In this document: positions 5,163-37,099 of the stretch, one piece after another
Layout of the letters: each line of letters opens with the position of its first letter
Position numbering within the stretch: the first letter of the stretch is position 1
NCBI GenBank assembly: GCA_012842565.1
Contig: DUSO01000018.1
Span: 1-42,168, forward strand
Reading direction: 5' to 3'
Length of the DNA: 42,168 nt
Source: Bacillota bacterium
GTDB taxonomy: Bacteria; Bacillota; SHA-98; Ch115
Made by a program: the position numbers and the translations under genes
The notes under the pieces: model-generated
Databases searched by the model: none
Seen by the model: the letters and a program-made list of their open reading frames with translations, nothing else
Told to the model about the DNA's origin: nothing

Positions 5163-5555
5163 ATGTATCCTGAGGACTTGAAGTATACCGAAAAGCATGA
5201 ATGGGTGAGGCTCGAAGGGAATAGAGCGGTGATAGGGATTACAAGCCACGCCCAGGACCAACTGGGGGCCATAGTTGGAATCGGGCTGCCACAGGTAGGG
5301 GACGTTGTGGAGCAAGGGCAGGAGCTGGCGGATATAGATTCTATGAAGACGGCTGATGTGATTTACGCTCCTGTGAGCGGCACCGTCGTTGAGGTGAACA
5401 AAAAGCTGGAGGAACACCCGGAGCTTATCAACGACGATCCTTACGGCGAGGGATGGGTGGCGGTGATTGAGATATCCAACGAGGAGGAGATAGGCTCCCT
5501 CATGAGCGCCGAAGAATATCGCGCCCTGGTGGAGGAAGGGGAGGAGGGCCATTGA
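5163..5555 (+). CDS. gcvH: Glycine cleavage system H protein (lipoyl carrier)
   Basis: A 130-residue H protein that shuttles the aminomethyl group between P, T and L proteins on a lipoyl arm. It starts MYPEDLKYTEKHEWVRLEGN, and the lipoylation site is K62 in ADIDSMKTADVIYAPVSG. The family more often has ESVK at this site; here it reads DSMK, with the acceptor lysine intact. In Firmicutes GcvH is also the first acceptor of octanoate from LipM, which matters because a LipM-like gene lies at 18714. The preceding SD is GGGGGG at 5152-5157. The stop overlaps the TTG start of gcvPA. Confidence 0.96.
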   Translation: MYPEDLKYTEKHEWVRLEGNRAVIGITSHAQDQLGAIVGIGLPQVGDVVEQGQELADIDSMKTADVIYAPVSGTVVEVNKKLEEHPELINDDPYGEGWVAVIEISNEEEIGSLMSAEEYRALVEEGEEGH

Positions 5556-7012
5556 ACTACATCCCCAACACAGAACGGGATCTTAGGGAAATGCTGGCGG
5601 CGATAGGGGTCGGGTCGGCCGAAGAGCTTTTCTCTGACATCCCGGCTGCTGTCCGGCTCAATAGAGACCTTGACCTCCCGCCGGCGCTGTCCGAGTACGA
5701 GCTCATAAAGCACATGAGCGGGCTTGCGGCGCGAAACCGTGGCGTCGATGATTATGTATCATTTCTGGGGGGCGGCGCATACGACCATTTCATCCCGAGC
5801 GCACTATTCACCATCCTTGGACGGTCGGAGTTCTACACAGCCTATACACCCTACCAGGCGGAAGTGAGCCAGGGCGTCCTCCAGTCGATATTTGAATACC
5901 AGTCGCTCATATGCGAGCTTACCGGCATGGATGTCAGCAATGCATCACTCTACGACGGGGCGACAGCCGTAGCCGAGGCGGCCACCATGGCGGCAAGGCA
6001 GACTCGCCGTAATGAGATTGTGATATCCCGCGCAGTTCATCCGGAGTATAGAATGTTGCTTAAGACCTATGCGCATGCCCTTGGCCTGCCCGTAAAGGAA
6101 ATCAGTTTCTCCGGTGGTATAACCGACCTCGAGGAGCTCAAGTCCGCCGTCACCGGTGCTACCGCATGTGTGATACTGCAGAGCCCCAACTTCTTTGGGT
6201 GCATTGAGCCCATGGGAGAGGCGGCGGATATATCTCACGCCGAAGGGGCGCTCTTTGTAGCGTGCGTGGACCCCATATCATTGGGGATCTTGGCACCCCC
6301 AGGCGAGTATGGTGCGGACATCGCCATAGGCGAAGGACAGGCGCTTGGCAATCCTCTCAATTTCGGTGGCCCCTACCTGGGCTTCCTTGCGTGCAAAAAT
6401 GAGTTCATTCGAAACATGCCGGGGAGGGTGGTGGGCGAGACCACCGACCCTAGGGGGCGGAGGGGATTTGTGCTGACGCTCCAGGCGCGCGAGCAGCACA
6501 TAAGAAGGGAAAGGGCTACCTCCAACATATGTTCCAATGAGGCGCTGTGCGCCCTTGCGGCTACCGTCTATCTCTCGCTTCTGGGAAAAAGCGGCATACG
6601 TGAGGTGGGCGAGCTTTGCGTGCAGAAATCCCACTACGCGGCAAAGAGGATAGCATCCATCCCCGGGTTTTCTATGAAGTATTCGGCTCCATTCTTCAAA
6701 GAATTCGTCATCGGCTGCCCCGTCGAGCCCTCATCCCTGATAATAGAGCTTAAGGGACAGGGGATCCTGCCAGGCATAGAGCTTGCCAGGATGTTGCCGC
6801 AAGATGAAAATCTAAAAGACGCGCTCCTTGTGGCCGTGACGGAAAAGCGGACAAAGGAGGAGATTGACAGGCTCGTCCAGGCTATGGCGCAATGTGCCGG
6901 GGCTGCCGTGCAGTCTGATGTCGGGGCTACAACACAGCCCGCCGGGGATACCCGGACAGAACGAGCGGCTGGCGACAGGGGACCCGCCTGCGGAAGAGAG
7001 GGATTGGCATGA
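5552..7012 (+). CDS. gcvPA: Glycine dehydrogenase (decarboxylating) subunit 1
   Basis: A 486-residue alpha subunit of the two-part P protein, which with GcvPB decarboxylates glycine and loads the aminomethyl group onto GcvH. Family landmarks are [12 protein letters not shown] at the start, [32 protein letters not shown] and NFGGPYLGF. The start is TTG 5552, overlapping the gcvH stop (TTGA) and preceded by GGGGAGGAGGG. The last ~35 residues (from about 452) are an Ala/Gly/Thr/Arg-rich tail beyond the usual ~445-450-residue length and look like low-complexity extension. The stop overlaps gcvPB (ATGA). Confidence 0.95.
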
Positions 7013-8601
7013 TCATCGAGCCAGAAGGACTCGGGCCAGGGGTGGAATCAAGAGCTATGGCGCAGAACAAGGCGAGGGGTCCAGAGCCCCTGATCTCGGA
7101 GCTGTCTTCGCCGGGCCGCAAGGGTTACTCGCTTCCGCCAATGGATGTGGAGGCAGGCAGGCTCGAGGACCTAATCCCGGAGGCCTACCTGCGGAAGGCC
7201 CCTCCTGGGCTGCCCGAGGTTTCAGAGGTTGACGTGGTTCGTCACTTCATCCGCCTCTCGCAGAAAAATTACGGCGTCGACGTCGGCTTTTACCCGCTCG
7301 GCTCCTGTACAATGAAATACAACCCGAAAGTGAATGAATACCTGGCCTCGCTCCCCGGCTTCATGTCATTACACCCTTATGAGCCGGAAGACCTGGTGCA
7401 GGGCGCACTCGAGCTCATGTATGAATTGCAGCAGTATCTCTGCGAAATCGGGGGCATGGACAGCGTGAGCCTCCAGCCCGCCGCAGGCGCCCATGGGGAG
7501 CTCACCGGGCTCCTGATGATCCGGGCATACCATGAGTACAGGGGAGAAGGCCAAAAAAGGACCAGGGTTATCGTCCCTGATTCAGCACATGGCACCAATC
7601 CAGCAAGTGCTGCCTTTTGCGGGTATAAGGTGGTAGAGGTTAAATCGGACGACAGGGGAGGGGTAGACGTCCGGGCCCTCCGTGAGATCATGGACGATTC
7701 CGTTGCGGCGCTGATGCTCACAAACCCCAACACCCTGGGCCTGTTTGACGAAAACATAGTAGAAGTCGCCGAGATCGTCCATGAGAAGGGCGGTCTCCTC
7801 TACTACGATGGCGCCAACATGAATGCTATAATGGGAATGGCAAGGCCGGGGGACATGGGCTTTGACGTGCTCCATTTCAACCTGCACAAGACCTTCTCCA
7901 CCCCCCATGGCGGTGGAGGGCCGGGCAGCGGGCCGGTAGGCGTCAAGAAAGCGCTGGAGCCGTTCCTTCCTGTGCCTGTCGTGGCGAGGAGGGATGCCCG
8001 GGCGGGTGACGTCCAAACCGGGAATGAACAGGCGGGGAACGGCCGGGTAGAGGACAGCCGGGGCGAGGGAGCCCCCCGGTATTTCCTTGATTACGACCGG
8101 CCGCTCAGCATAGGCAGGGTCAGGTCTTTTTACGGGAATTTCGGGGTGATGGTCAAGGCCTATGCATATATCCGGGCGCTTGGAGCTAAGGGCCTTAAGG
8201 AGGCGAGCGAGGCGGCCGTGATAGCCGCCAACTACGTGCTCAGCAGGCTCAAATCCCACTATCATGTGCCTTATGATCGCCATTGCAAGCACGAATTCGT
8301 CATATCTGCAAAGAACCAGATGGAATATGGGGTCCGTACGTCCGACATCGCCAAGGCTCTCCTGGACTACGGTTTCCATGCGCCGACCATTTACTTCCCG
8401 CTCATCGTCAAGGAGGCCATAATGGTGGAGCCGACCGAGACCGAGAGCAAGGAGACGCTGGATGCGTTTTGTGAAGCGTTGATCGAGATCGCGGACAAGG
8501 CGCGGAGTGACCCGGAATACCTGCACCAAGCGCCTCACACTACCGTAGTCGGCCGGCTGGACGAAGTAACTGCGGCGAGGAAGCCAAAGCTAAGGTGGTA
8601 G
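7009..8601 (+). CDS. gcvPB: Glycine dehydrogenase (decarboxylating) subunit 2
   Basis: A 530-residue beta subunit carrying the pyridoxal-phosphate lysine, K294 in [18 protein letters not shown]. Other landmarks are [35 protein letters not shown] and [11 protein letters not shown]. Two oddities: about 27 extra residues at the N-terminus before the conserved [15 protein letters not shown], and a Gly/Asp/Arg-rich insertion of about 30 residues at 327-357, just where most homologues go straight from VPVV to YYLDYDRP. The start ATG 7009 overlaps the gcvPA stop; ATG 7057 is an alternative closer to the family length. No dihydrolipoamide dehydrogenase (L protein) gene is in the window. Confidence 0.95.
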
Positions 8602-31399: not shown

Positions 31400-31592
31400 C
31401 TCATTCGGTACCCCTCATGCCGGTTCAGTGAGCGCCAATCCCCTCTCCGCCAATGAGGAGGGCGTTCATCCATAAAAGTAGTAAAGTAGAGTCCTGGCAT
31501 ACGATCGTGATAATTCGGGACATCGCGTAATATTCCTGCCGGGGGTGTCCGTTATATAGCAGGAGATCTGCCTAAAGGGTTGAATATATTCC

Positions 31593-31628
31593 GTGAACGG
31601 TTACGTGATCGCTCACGTGATCGCTCAC
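31593..31628. promoter_or_regulatory. Three abutting 12-bp LacI-type operator-like sites
   Basis: GTGAACGGTTAC (31593-31604), GTGATCGCTCAC (31605-31616) and the identical GTGATCGCTCAC (31617-31628) lie end to end. All fit GTGAnCGnTnAC, with the central CG and near-palindromic arms typical of LacI/GalR-family operators. TATATT at 31585-31590 just upstream could be a -10 box. The array is 43 bases before the LacI-family start, which suggests autoregulation. Confidence 0.7.
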
Positions 31629-31670
31629 GGAATGAATGCCGGAGGGTGGCGAAGGAGACGGGTCAAAACG

Positions 31671-32741
31671 ATGGGGATCACCATGAAGGATATCGCCAGG
31701 CTTGCCGGGGTTTCTGTCAACACAGTCTCCCGCGCGTTGAACGGCAAGCCTGAGATAGATGAAAAGACGAGACAGCGGATCTTAGAGATTGCAAGGGAGC
31801 ATAGCTACAGCCCAAACAGCCTCGCAGCTTCCCTCGCGTCAAAAAAGACCAGGACGGTCGGCCTTATTGTTCCTGATATATGTGACCCTTTTTACGCTCA
31901 GCAGGCTCGCGGAGTGGAAGACATGGCCAGGGCCCGGGGATATACCGTGATCCTGATAAATACCGATGAGGACCCCAAGACCGAGCTCAAGGCGGTGGAT
32001 ACCCTTCGTAGCAAGAGGGTGGATGGGATGCTCCTTACCTCAGTGTTTCCGGGCATAGACCACGTGGTCTTGCTGCAGAAGCAGCATATCCCCTTTGTCC
32101 TGCTCAATCGCCGGCTGACCTCCCTCGATACCGACTACGTAGTCAACGACAACATCAAAGGGGCCTATGAGGCCACAAGGCACCTTATAAGATTAGGCCA
32201 TACACGGATTGCCCATATCACGGGGCCGGAGCGAATTACGAGTGTCCGCGAACGCCTTGCCGGATACACCAAGGCTATTCAGGAGGCAGGGCTTTCCATC
32301 CAGGACGACCTCGTCTTTACAGGCGAAAGTCTTAAGCCCCAGTCAGGGGAAGTACTTGCACGGCGGGCCCTATCTGTCAATCCCAGGCCTACCGCTATCT
32401 TTGCCTTTTGCGACACCCTGGCGATGGGCGCCTATGCGACGGCCAAAGAGATGGGGCTTATGGTGCCTGAGGACCTTGCTATCGTTGGTTATGACGACAT
32501 CCCGTTTGCAGCCTGCTTCGAGGTTCCTTTGACCACCGTGGCCCAGCCCTCATATGAGATGGGCCGGACCGCGTGCAAAATCCTCCTCGACAGGATTGAG
32601 TCTGGTGGGAATGACCAGGAGCAGGAGGGTGTGCCCAAGGGACAGGTAGTGTTTGACGCGCGCCTGGTGATTCGAAAATCCTGTGGGGCATACTTGGGTC
32701 AGGAGAGACGGCGGCAGAATTTGGCCGTCATAAAGGGATAG
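31671..32741 (+). CDS. LacI-family transcriptional regulator
   Basis: A 356-residue LacI/GalR regulator. The helix-turn-helix and hinge are classic: MKDIARLAGVSVNTVSRALN, then YSPNSLAASLASKKTRTVG. The periplasmic-binding-like sensor follows (GLIVPDICDPFYAQQARGVE, RLGHTRIAHITGP, DLAIVGYDDIPFA). The frame is open back to 31593, but that DNA is the operator array; GAAGGAGAC at 31651-31659 supports ATG 31671, with ATG 31683 as an alternative. It heads the isomerase/ABC importer cluster and is probably its sugar-responsive repressor; the sugar is unknown. Confidence 0.92.
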   Translation: MGITMKDIARLAGVSVNTVSRALNGKPEIDEKTRQRILEIAREHSYSPNSLAASLASKKTRTVGLIVPDICDPFYAQQARGVEDMARARGYTVILINTDEDPKTELKAVDTLRSKRVDGMLLTSVFPGIDHVVLLQKQHIPFVLLNRRLTSLDTDYVVNDNIKGAYEATRHLIRLGHTRIAHITGPERITSVRERLAGYTKAIQEAGLSIQDDLVFTGESLKPQSGEVLARRALSVNPRPTAIFAFCDTLAMGAYATAKEMGLMVPEDLAIVGYDDIPFAACFEVPLTTVAQPSYEMGRTACKILLDRIESGGNDQEQEGVPKGQVVFDARLVIRKSCGAYLGQERRRQNLAVIKG

Positions 32742-32751
32742 TGATTCATAT

Positions 32752-33627
32752 ATGAAGGTCGGTTGTGCATACCTCGTTGCCATAAGCCGGTTCGGCTTTC
32801 CCCCGAGACCGGAGGACAACCTCAAGGCCATAAAGGATGTAGCTTCGGCTGGCTTTGACGGCATTGAGTTTGAAGCCGTGGCTGGTGCAAACCTGGAAGG
32901 CATTGAGCAGATCCGGGATGAAATCAAGGGGCTGCTCCGGGAATCGGGCCTGGAGGTAGCGAGTTTCACGGGTGTCATGCCGGAGCTTTATGCCCTGGAC
33001 CCCGGCTCCTCGAGCCAGGCTCTTGCCACGTTTGAGCGGATAGCCGGCCTTGCAAGCTATCTCGGGGCAAAGGTCATTGATTTCTGTCCCTACCTGCCCC
33101 CGGAGCTCCCGGGAGTTCCCGGATCCGAGCTGTATCTCGGGGGCCCTCCCACGCGTATTTCGCCAAAGCAAGGATTTTCATGGGAGAAGTTTTGGAATAA
33201 CGCAATCGACCAGACGGCACGATGCGGGGAAATAGCGGCCCGCTACGGCCTGCGCATGGCGATAGAAGGACGGGTCGGTGACTTTGTAGCTACCACTGAC
33301 GGGGTCCTGGCCCTTCTCGAGAAGTGTGACCCCGAGAATACAGGCCTCCTGCTCGATATCGCGCACGTCCATGCGGCCAAGGAGTATCTGGAGCTTGTGA
33401 TTCCAAAGGTTGGAAAGCGCATAATCCACGTCCATATCGCCGATAACCTCGGGGACCATGCCTACCACCGCCCCATGGGGGAAGGCAATATAGATTTCGA
33501 CATGGTCGTAAGGCTCCTCCGGCAGGTAGGGTATGACGGGTACCTCTGCGTTGACCTGGGGGGAATCGAGGACGTTTGGGCAAAGTCTGTGGAGGACCTG
33601 GCCAAGGTCCGCGCTCTCATTTCCTAG
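32752..33627 (+). CDS. Sugar phosphate isomerase/epimerase (xylose isomerase-like TIM barrel)
   Basis: A 291-residue TIM-barrel protein of the AP-endonuclease-2/xylose-isomerase-like family. Visible elements are AGFDGIEFEAVAG, a metal-site glutamate in MAIEGRVGD, TGLLLDIAHVHAA, the histidine run IIHVHIADNLGDHAYH and MGEGNIDFDMVVRLL. These bind a divalent metal and support aldose–ketose isomerisation or 3-epimerisation of a sugar or sugar acid. It starts 10 bases after the LacI gene and precedes the sugar importer, so it probably processes the imported compound. Confidence 0.82.
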   Translation: MKVGCAYLVAISRFGFPPRPEDNLKAIKDVASAGFDGIEFEAVAGANLEGIEQIRDEIKGLLRESGLEVASFTGVMPELYALDPGSSSQALATFERIAGLASYLGAKVIDFCPYLPPELPGVPGSELYLGGPPTRISPKQGFSWEKFWNNAIDQTARCGEIAARYGLRMAIEGRVGDFVATTDGVLALLEKCDPENTGLLLDIAHVHAAKEYLELVIPKVGKRIIHVHIADNLGDHAYHRPMGEGNIDFDMVVRLLRQVGYDGYLCVDLGGIEDVWAKSVEDLAKVRALIS

Positions 33628-33774
33628 AGGCCGGGCGCGGAGTATGCCGAATAGAGTTGGGAATAAGGGGGAATGGGCGGGGATCAGACACGGATAGACT
33701 GTTTTGGCATCAATGAAGGTCTGCAGGTCCCTATGATTGTCCCGGCACAGAATCTCGAGGGGAGGAAAAGACGG

Positions 33775-35067
33775 ATGAAACGAATCATTCCTCTAGTCGT
33801 ATTGATCGCGACCATGATCGCCATGGTGAGCGTGACAGCCTCGGCCAAGACAATCAATATCTGGACGGGGTTTCCCGAGCTCGAGCCTTTTTATAAGTGG
33901 GCTGGCGCTGAGTTTGCCAAGAGCCACCCCGGGGTGAATTTCCAGGTCTTGAGCACTAGCCTGAGGGAGTTCGAACAGAAACTTACCGCGGCGATTCCCA
34001 CGGGCACGGGTCCGGATGTTTTTGATGTCGGCCCGTACATCGCGATAAAGCTCATAGATGCAGGGCTTCTCCCGCCAAACCCTCCGGAGGTGGACGCCCA
34101 TCTCAAGGGTGGGGCCTGGAGCAAGTTTTCGGTAGACTATGTTACCATCGGCGGTAAGACCTACGGCATCCCTCTCATGAACGGGAGCCGGGCTGCCCTC
34201 TTCTACAATAAGAAAATGTTCAGGGAGGCGGGCCTTGATCCTAACAGCCCTCCTGCTACCTTCCCGGACCTGCTGCAGGCGGCGACCAAACTCACGAAGT
34301 ATGACAGCGCGGGCAACGTGGTGCGGAGCGGGCACAGTATGAGGATATCCGGAGGCGGTAGCGGACTTACAGAGAAATTCCGTTTTGTCCTGCACAACGC
34401 CGGCGGCGACGTGATTGTCCCCACAGGCGGAGGCAAGTGGAGAAACGACTTGGATAACGAGGCCGGCCAGAGGGCTCTCCAGTACTATATCGACTCCATT
34501 CACAAGTACAAGGTGGACGATCCGCAGGTACGCCACGATTCCGAGGCGTTTGTCACAGAGTCTACTGCCATGTTCCTGAGGGAGAGCTGGGTGATAGGGG
34601 AGATCAAGTCTAAGAACCCCAAGCTGGAGTATGGCGTTGCCCCCATGCCCAAGTGGGAGCGGTGGGACACCCTGGCTCAACCGTGGTCGGTGTATATGTC
34701 GGCTGAAGGCGCCAAGTCCAAGGAAGTCAGGGAATTCATCAACTTCCTGACCGGCAAGGAGGCCGCGGCGAAGCTCGTGGAGCTATCCGGCTGGATTCCT
34801 GACCGGCTTGACTTCGACTGGCAGTCGCTGGTCAAGAAAACCCCACAGTACCAGGTGTTCGTGAACCCGCCAAAGGGTATGGGCTTCTTTGCAGACCCAG
34901 TGATGCCGGCTTTTGACGAGGTGCAGACGAAGGTCGCGGATAGGCTGGTGGAGGCATTCCTCGACAAGAAGCTCGTGAACAACCAGGAAGGCATCAAGCG
35001 CGTGGTTCATGAGATCGGCGGACTGATAGACTCGATATTAAAGCGCTATGGCGCTTATGGGAAGTAG
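33775..35067 (+). CDS. Sugar ABC transporter substrate-binding protein (family 1)
   Basis: A 430-residue extracellular solute-binding protein. It begins with a Sec signal peptide (MKRIIPLVVLIATMIAMVSV, cleavage after ASA near residue 24) and no lipobox cysteine. Then come INIWTGFPELEPFYKW, GTGPDVFDVG, YGIPLMNGSRAALFYNKKMF and EFINFLTGKEAAAKL, typical of MalE/UgpB-type binding proteins. The frame is open to 33673, but GGGGAGG about 10 bases upstream of ATG 33775 and the signal peptide set the start. First of three importer genes. Confidence 0.92.
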   Translation: MKRIIPLVVLIATMIAMVSVTASAKTINIWTGFPELEPFYKWAGAEFAKSHPGVNFQVLSTSLREFEQKLTAAIPTGTGPDVFDVGPYIAIKLIDAGLLPPNPPEVDAHLKGGAWSKFSVDYVTIGGKTYGIPLMNGSRAALFYNKKMFREAGLDPNSPPATFPDLLQAATKLTKYDSAGNVVRSGHSMRISGGGSGLTEKFRFVLHNAGGDVIVPTGGGKWRNDLDNEAGQRALQYYIDSIHKYKVDDPQVRHDSEAFVTESTAMFLRESWVIGEIKSKNPKLEYGVAPMPKWERWDTLAQPWSVYMSAEGAKSKEVREFINFLTGKEAAAKLVELSGWIPDRLDFDWQSLVKKTPQYQVFVNPPKGMGFFADPVMPAFDEVQTKVADRLVEAFLDKKLVNNQEGIKRVVHEIGGLIDSILKRYGAYGK

Positions 35068-35246
35068 GTTCCCCTGGAAGCAGGGCTTCGGCGATGGGGC
35101 TCCAGCCGCAGGCAAGGCTGGTGCCCTGTCGCGACTCACCGTGGTCCGGGGGGAGGTAAAGATGAGACCTGCGCAGAGTCGTGGTTTGGCGGCCCTGGTC
35201 CGGCTGGTTCATGCCTGAATAGGGCGGTCAGGAAGAGGTGTTTGAA

Positions 35247-36155
35247 ATGGGACGGCGTCCGGGTTTCCTGGGCTATTCCTCGTTTGAGCGGTCCAAGATC
35301 GCCTTCTGCTACCTTGCTCTCTTGCCCATTCTGGCCTTATTTGCAATACTACGCATTATTCCGATAATCGAGACCTTCTGGCTGAGTCTATATGACTGGA
35401 AACTGGTGGGCAGTGTAAGGCCGTTCATAGGGCTCGCAAACTACCAGGGGCTTATCGGGGATGAACAATTCTGGCTCGCCATCAAGAATACATCCCTTTA
35501 TGCGGGTGCAAGTGTGATCCTGGGGCTAACAATTTCCCTGCCCATTGCGGTGGCACTTGCCGGGAAGATGAAGTTATCCCCGTTTTACCAGGCGATATAC
35601 TTCTTGCCTTTCATTACGCCGATGGTCCCGATGGCGGTGGCATGGAAATGGATATACGACCCCAGATATGGTATCCTCAATTACATCCTGTCTTTCTTCG
35701 GAATGCAGCCAATAGGCTGGCTCATCTACCCGGAGATAGCCATCTGGGCTCTCATAGCCATGAACGTGTGGAAGAACCTCGGGTACAACATAGTGTTGCT
35801 GTTGGTGGGGCTGAGGAATATTCCCGCTGTATACTACGAGGCAGCTAGCATAGATGGGGCGGCGGGGTGGAGCCGTTTTCGCCATATCACGTTCCCGCTC
35901 TTAAAGCCGATCCTGCTCTATGTGCTGGTAACTTCCACTATAAATGCGTTTAACGTATTCACCCAGGTCTACGTGATGACCCTTGGTTCTCAAGCGGCGC
36001 CGGGCCGGGCCGTCAGGGTCTTGCTCTACGACATATACGAGAACGGCTTCAGGTATTTTAGGATGGGCTATGCTTCTGCTGAGGCCGTAATCCTGACACT
36101 CATCGTCCTCGCCCTGACCCTGGTGCAGTTTAAGCTCGTGAAATCCGAGGCATGA
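35247..36155 (+). CDS. Sugar ABC transporter permease (MalF/UgpA type)
   Basis: A 302-residue permease with about six membrane segments, starting with FCYLALLPILALFAILRIIP. The ATPase-coupling EAA loop reads YEAASIDGAAGWSRFRHITFP. GTG 35238 is in frame but sits within the SD; AGAGGTG is better spaced for ATG 35247. The end overlaps the ATG at 36152 of the next frame. Confidence 0.92.
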   Translation: MGRRPGFLGYSSFERSKIAFCYLALLPILALFAILRIIPIIETFWLSLYDWKLVGSVRPFIGLANYQGLIGDEQFWLAIKNTSLYAGASVILGLTISLPIAVALAGKMKLSPFYQAIYFLPFITPMVPMAVAWKWIYDPRYGILNYILSFFGMQPIGWLIYPEIAIWALIAMNVWKNLGYNIVLLLVGLRNIPAVYYEAASIDGAAGWSRFRHITFPLLKPILLYVLVTSTINAFNVFTQVYVMTLGSQAAPGRAVRVLLYDIYENGFRYFRMGYASAEAVILTLIVLALTLVQFKLVKSEA

Positions 36156-36199
36156 CCGCCGGGCTTTCGAGACCCTGGGTGCGAAGGGGGGACGTTTCA

Positions 36200-37099
36200 A
36201 TGCGAGACACACAACATGGTATAGGGTCGGATACCGGTCTTCCGGGCCCTGGTGCGTCAAATCGTGGCAAGAAGCTGCCCGAATTGGTTTGGTCCGGCGC
36301 AGTGCAACTGGCCCTCATGGCAGGCGCCATATTCATGGTCATACCGTTTCTCTGGATGATATCAACGTCCTTCAAGCCCCCGACAGAGGTGCTGTCCTGG
36401 CCCCCGAATCTCGTGCCCAAGGAGCCGACGGCCTCAAACTATGTAGGCCTATTTGGCGAGGCGCCTTTTGTGAGGTTTTTCTTAAACAGCGTCTTTATCT
36501 CCACGGTTTCTACCGTGGCGATACTGGCTACCTCGGTTGTGGGCGGGTTCGTGTTTGGCAAATATCGCTTCCCGGGTCGCGATTTCCTGTTTCTTGTGCT
36601 CCTTGCGACAGCTATAGTGCCGTTCGAGAGCTACATAATCCCACTTTATGCCCGTATGGTCCGGTGGCACTGGATCAATACCTACCAGGGGATCATCGCT
36701 CCCTACCTCATAATGAGTTTTGGGATATTCCTGATGAGACAGCACATAAACTCCACGATTTCGGATGAGCTCTTAGACGCCGCCAGGATAGACGGGTGCT
36801 CTGAATGGCGGATTCTTACGAGCATTGTGCTGCCGCTATCCAGGTCAGCGGGCGGGGCCCTGGGCATCTTTGCGTTTACTCAGGCATGGATCGCCTTCAT
36901 GTGGCCGCTTCTCATCGCCAACGTCAGGGAGCTTTTCAACATGGAACTGGGACTCACCATGTTTCAGTTCAGGTTCAGCACGGACTACGGCCTTCTCATG
37001 GCGGGGTCGGTCCTGTCTGTGCTTCCCATGATCATCGTCTTTGTGTTCCTGAGGAGGCAGATCATCGAGAGCATTGCGCTTACCGGGCTCAAGAGCTAA
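36200..37099 (+). CDS. Sugar ABC transporter permease (MalG/UgpE type)
   Basis: A 299-residue permease: FMVIPFLWMISTSFKPPTEV near the start, a coupling loop LLDAARIDGCSEWRILTSIV, and six membrane segments in all. Two starts are possible: ATG 36152, overlapping the upstream stop (ATGA), and ATG 36200, which has AAGGGGGG about 9 bases upstream; the latter is taken here. No ATPase gene follows, so the importer probably borrows a shared MsmK/UgpC-type ATPase encoded elsewhere. Confidence 0.92.
   Translation: MRDTQHGIGSDTGLPGPGASNRGKKLPELVWSGAVQLALMAGAIFMVIPFLWMISTSFKPPTEVLSWPPNLVPKEPTASNYVGLFGEAPFVRFFLNSVFISTVSTVAILATSVVGGFVFGKYRFPGRDFLFLVLLATAIVPFESYIIPLYARMVRWHWINTYQGIIAPYLIMSFGIFLMRQHINSTISDELLDAARIDGCSEWRILTSIVLPLSRSAGGALGIFAFTQAWIAFMWPLLIANVRELFNMELGLTMFQFRFSTDYGLLMAGSVLSVLPMIIVFVFLRRQIIESIALTGLKS

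Follow-up and report, generated by a model that had tools for sequence, protein, structure and literature searches.

The lac repressor LacI is the textbook repressor, and classical blocking operators are positioned at the transcription start. The lac operator O1, like the symmetric lac operator, shares both this position and a nearly identical half-site (GTGAnC) with the array described here, but the lac system differs in relying on one central site, auxiliary sites at a distance and a repressor that is a tetramer. Much closer packing was reported by Ravcheev et al. 2014 (PMC4052901), who counted 110 operons with LacI-family sites spaced at about 13 bp, an arrangement they could not explain, and three adjacent sites grouped at 116 operons. 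Sites packed at 12-13 bp lie upstream of many operons with no accepted structural explanation, and a search of the open-access literature for zero-gap LacI arrays returned nothing beyond that study. Outside the family, CodY dimers occupy partly overlapping sites cooperatively, lying side by side along one face of the DNA with an offset of 60 degrees and 30 A, with three dimers lined up on the ureA operator (PMC10415144).

The window analysed here is the whole 42,168-nucleotide stretch of Bacillota contig DUSO01000018.1. Read directly, positions 31593-31628 consist of GTGAACGGTTAC, GTGATCGCTCAC and GTGATCGCTCAC again, three CG-centred 12-mers with zero gap between them; the first-pass annotation had given both the sequence and the coordinates of this array exactly, including the identity of the last two sites. 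Site 1 (31593-31604) has the half-sites GTGAAC and GTAACC, site 2 (31605-31616) the half-sites GTGATC and GTGAGC, and site 3 (31617-31628) has the same letters as site 2; none is assigned to a strand. All three are even palindromes with a central CG, as expected of LacI-family operators, with 4/6, 5/6 and 5/6 symmetrical pairs, respectively, and they follow the template G-6, A-3, C-1, G+1, T+3, C+6. Two further features had been overlooked in the annotation. The array lies inside a strandless 46-bp dyad (31588-31633, running from ATTCCGTGA to TCACGGAAT) that pairs at 19 of 23 positions and is centred on site 2, and CG dinucleotides stand at 6-bp intervals, seven in succession when the flanks are included, because each 12-mer begins with G and finishes with C. 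Twelve base pairs is the tightest spacing at which two 12-bp cores have no base pair in common.

Compared with the published systems, the array is a zero-gap, triple version of the closely spaced LacI-family sites already described, and the annotation's phrase "rarely described" is not supported in view of those 110 operons (PMC4052901). In both cases the layout is conserved in orthologues. Like the window array, the GntR sites at E. coli gntKU are too close to their neighbours for ordinary independent dimer binding. The sequence upstream of E. coli gntK reads GTTACCGATAAC-A-GTTACCCGTAAC, giving a 1-bp gap and a 13-bp spacing, and GntR sites occur in twos, whereas the window has zero gap (12 bp), three sites and the 46-bp dyad. 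The relatives in this analysis also have zero gap, unlike the 13 bp of GntR, and the published peak at about 13 bp may merge 12-bp and 13-bp spacings. CodY offers a mechanistic analogy only: its fold is unrelated to that of the LacI family, and its sites are offset by 9 bp with true sequence overlap, as against 12 bp and none.

The array ends 42 bp before a forward-strand gene for a LacI-family repressor (31671-32741, 356 aa; Pfam PF00356 at E 1e-19, PF00532 and PF13377). Together, the CG-centred palindromes and this linked gene, with its PF00356 helix-turn-helix domain, bear out the annotation's description of the sites as LacI-type, as judged from the sequence. The recognition helix of the protein is VSVNTVSRALN, and none of the NCBIfam models reached its cut-off against this regulator. 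Translation would begin at ATG 31671, with an alternative start at 31683, and a possible ribosome-binding site (AAGGAG, 31652-31657, forward strand) can be read from the sequence. A GTG at 31593 opens the longest reading frame but falls inside the array, and is not likely to be the start codon. The genes that follow, all on the forward strand, encode a xylose-isomerase-like TIM-barrel sugar isomerase/epimerase (32752-33627, PF01261), a carbohydrate ABC-transporter solute-binding protein (33673-35067, PF01547) and two ABC permeases, one UgpA/MalF-like (35238-36155, PF00528) and one UgpE/MalG-like (36152-37099, PF00528).

A possible -10 hexamer, TATATT (5/6 matches; 31585-31590, forward strand), ends 2 bp before site 1 and had also been overlooked. 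Its -35 partner is weak, and a sigma-70 consensus scan of 31400-31700 found no promoter above threshold (shuffles gave 0.4), yet its position matches that seen in relatives. In 20 of these, a TATAAT-like hexamer, perfect in 16, stops 4-7 bp short of the first site, which places the array at the probable transcription start.

The array is not a product of chance. The pattern GTGANCGNTNAC has five matches in the 42-kb window, palindromic ones being counted on both strands, and all of them lie in 31593-31628; 100 dinucleotide shuffles gave a mean of 0.20, a largest count of 2 and never five. Across the 2.5-Mb genome, a two-site 24-bp pattern with up to 3 mismatches gave 18 matches against 14 for the reversed control, and with fewer than 3 mismatches the window array stood alone; matches at three mismatches did not rise above control level.

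Two candidate regulons were considered and rejected. The genome-wide search with the single 12-mer, which the annotation had proposed for defining the regulon, defined none: there were 5 forward matches against 6 for the reversed control, hence no enrichment, and the four places outside the array, no more than the control gave, include at least two within reading frames. The double pattern likewise offered no place besides the window array below 3 mismatches. A single copy of GTGAACGGTTAC does occur elsewhere, about 260 bp before a gene for a secreted protein (L003 1501; G000:C90:7516), as is expected by chance at such a frequency.

The annotation had held that absence of the repeat from close relatives would count against its reading; relatives in fact carry two or three abutting sites. 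A scan of genome contigs for close relatives returned only three distant Lachnospiraceae LacI genes (27-31% identity), and one genome (G001) was the sole other member of the same family available for comparison. Its LacI protein is 55% identical to that of the window and has the same helix, VSVNTVSRALN. Two abutting sites, ATTAACGTTCAC and GTAACCGATACC, lie upstream of the orthologous gene, and two more, ATTAACGTTCAC and GTAAACGATACC, in front of the gene that follows it in the cluster; these sites match the pattern less well than the window array, but both pairs were recovered in a genome search allowing 2 mismatches, with no other such match near the LacI gene. In a genome of the same order (G003; the helix is again the same, SVNTVSRAL), the motif ATCGATmACGTkATGGT precedes the LacI gene and recurs about 22 kb off, on the same contig, in front of another gene. 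The two blocks, TTAATCGATAAC with GTGATGGTTAAT and GTGATCGATCAC with GTTATGGTTAAC, respectively, are alike at most positions over 24 bp. All four blocks in these genomes are two abutting 12-mers, against three in the window, and the operator is kept before the orthologous regulator genes of both and, in altered sequence, across the wider clade. By eye, the gene behind the second G003 block (L215 near 4662; G003:C17:32656) resembles inositol-1-phosphate synthase and is followed by kinase-like and oxidoreductase-like genes, a possible pointer to a ligand of polyol type for regulators of this group.

Each dimer has two possible centres. Instead of sitting within the 12-mers, a dimer could be centred on the ACGT junctions between them (CGnTnAC/GTnAnCG), in which case the window would hold two overlapping sites and the G001 and G003 operators one each. 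Both operators of each of those genomes are indeed conserved over about 24 bp around the junction, a CG is always found there, and the 6-bp CG lattice allows a second register. We nevertheless consider junction centring unlikely. The junction CG is automatic when abutting 12-mers end in C and start with G, and the junction half-sites of the window and G001 lack A-3, having T or C instead, whereas A-3, which half-sites read within the 12-mers also carry, stands on both sides in 19 of the 24 strong palindromes that precede LacI genes (two of the five exceptions are the junction centres of the G005 array). The argument carries most weight for the window and G001 pair, since A can stand in the junction half-sites of G003 and of the wider clade. 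Among 18 double operators, neither A-3 and T+3 of the two sites nor the outer G-6 ever varies, and conservation extends as far as 9 and 12 bp away from the junction, which is too far for one junction-centred dimer; in most of these operators the CGs were required by the search and provide no evidence, but A-3, T+3 and G-6 were not required. Centring within each 12-mer is thus the register that these sequences favour, although it is not proven.

The zero-gap layout extends well beyond the closest relatives. Abutting sites precede about 10 of the 28 LacI genes examined in the phylum, nearest by DNA-binding domain and picked by protein search alone, and, within the order to which G237 belongs, the majority of 26 orthologues (TTGGAAACGTTACCGTTAACGTTTCCAA and TTGAAAGCGTTACCGTTAACGCTTTCAA are examples). 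Across a large clade of related regulators there are two sites, rarely three, exactly 12 bp apart. Upstream of 81 LacI genes, full-template pairs occurred 14 times at 12 bp and 12 times in total at 6, 18, 24 and 26 bp; the set includes a few pattern-found loci, which biases the absolute rate, but the spacing peak also rests on protein-found loci. At no other spacing up to 40 bp were such pairs seen before these genes, and 50 shuffles produced practically none. On a tree of 72 regulators, arrays fall into two distinct clades and at least six changes are required, so the abutting layout is either ancient with frequent losses or has been gained repeatedly.

G163 and G425 carry triples, as does another LacI group in G004 and G005; G014 holds the array of this second group too. 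In these last three genomes, which belong to one genus, the triple is a perfect 36-bp palindrome (L070, L071 and L069; GATACCGGTTAC, GTAACCGGTTAC and GTAACCGGTATC in direct succession); it precedes a LacI gene in G004 and G005 and is located at a contig end in G014. Single operators like TCGTAAACGTTTACGA, with CG at both outer edges, precede LacI genes at L019, L169, L176 and L179 and go with the helices VSYATVSRALN or VSIATVSRVFN; such a half-array could be a precursor of the CG lattice.

We conclude that the array is a real, conserved control element, as far as comparison of genomes can tell, and its best-supported reading, which we hold to be probable, is that of a predicted autoregulatory LacI-family operator at the transcription start. 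That position makes repression of the LacI promoter and operon the likely role, and LacI-family sites at such positions in Caldicellulosiruptor have likewise been taken as repressor sites (PMC8579813). The sequences show the array itself, its conservation in two or three units 12 bp apart before related LacI genes and the distance between -10 and array in relatives, whereas binding by the window LacI protein, repression and ligand release are inferred. The repressor, a dimer by family precedent, would bind the array and block initiation of its own gene, probably together with the isomerase and ABC-transporter genes behind it, until a sugar-type ligand frees it. The autoregulation proposed in the annotation is thereby supported, through position and conservation. 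LacI binding is a prediction, and sites 2 and 3 are identical, as a recent 12-bp duplication would leave them; even so, it is very improbable that another regulator uses the array or that it is no more than a neutral short tandem duplication. The array is unique in the genome and adjoins a LacI gene, and arrays accompany LacI genes in many genera, with template and spacing constant while the sequence varies.

How an autoregulatory operator of this form would be occupied can be argued in two ways. A LacI-family dimer contacts about 7 bp on each side of its centre, so that neighbours 12 bp apart collide at their edges (PMC4052901), while sites 1 and 3, at 24 bp, are sufficiently separated. Occupancy might then be exclusive, in line with the sliding or alternating filling suggested in the annotation: a single dimer at a time on any of the three sites, or a pair of dimers on the outer two. 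The extra registers would raise effective affinity, being several and allowing fast re-binding, and the response would become graded or tighter. We regard this as a possibility to be taken seriously, if well short of probable. Exclusive filling does not need a fixed spacing, yet 12 bp is kept in many orthologues, and because most relatives have two sites only, the 24-bp outer pair is not a general reason for the layout.

The most likely version of the mechanism would place more than one dimer on the array at once in a fixed 12-bp geometry, with the third site lengthening or strengthening a two-site unit. The conservation over many genera of 12 bp, precisely the tightest spacing that leaves the cores separate, and the intact key bases of both sites speak somewhat for such side-by-side filling, and CodY offers a precedent for dimers placed next to one another, three of them in a row. 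By arithmetic rather than modeling, the 12-bp offset corresponds to about 41 A along and about 51 degrees around B-DNA. Recognition helices of dimers 12 bp apart would be merely about 3 bp from each other, as estimated from family structures, and dimers at such distances have been judged unable to interact (Ravcheev 2014, PMC4052901); both points count against co-filling. As a full proposal, that zero-gap 12-bp sites are filled simultaneously by dimers side by side (three here), in a geometry not known from the family, and that this is how the autoregulatory operators of a large LacI clade work by default, it remains tentative and somewhat doubtful. A regular triple, together with a clade whose normal operator is the zero-gap pair, provides clean natural substrates for distinguishing stacking from turn-taking.

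Elsewhere in the window, a tandem glycine riboswitch with two aptamers (RF00504, 3720-3923) immediately precedes a cluster of glycine-cleavage genes (gcvT-like from 3895, gcvP-like 5552-8601), an ordinary arrangement.
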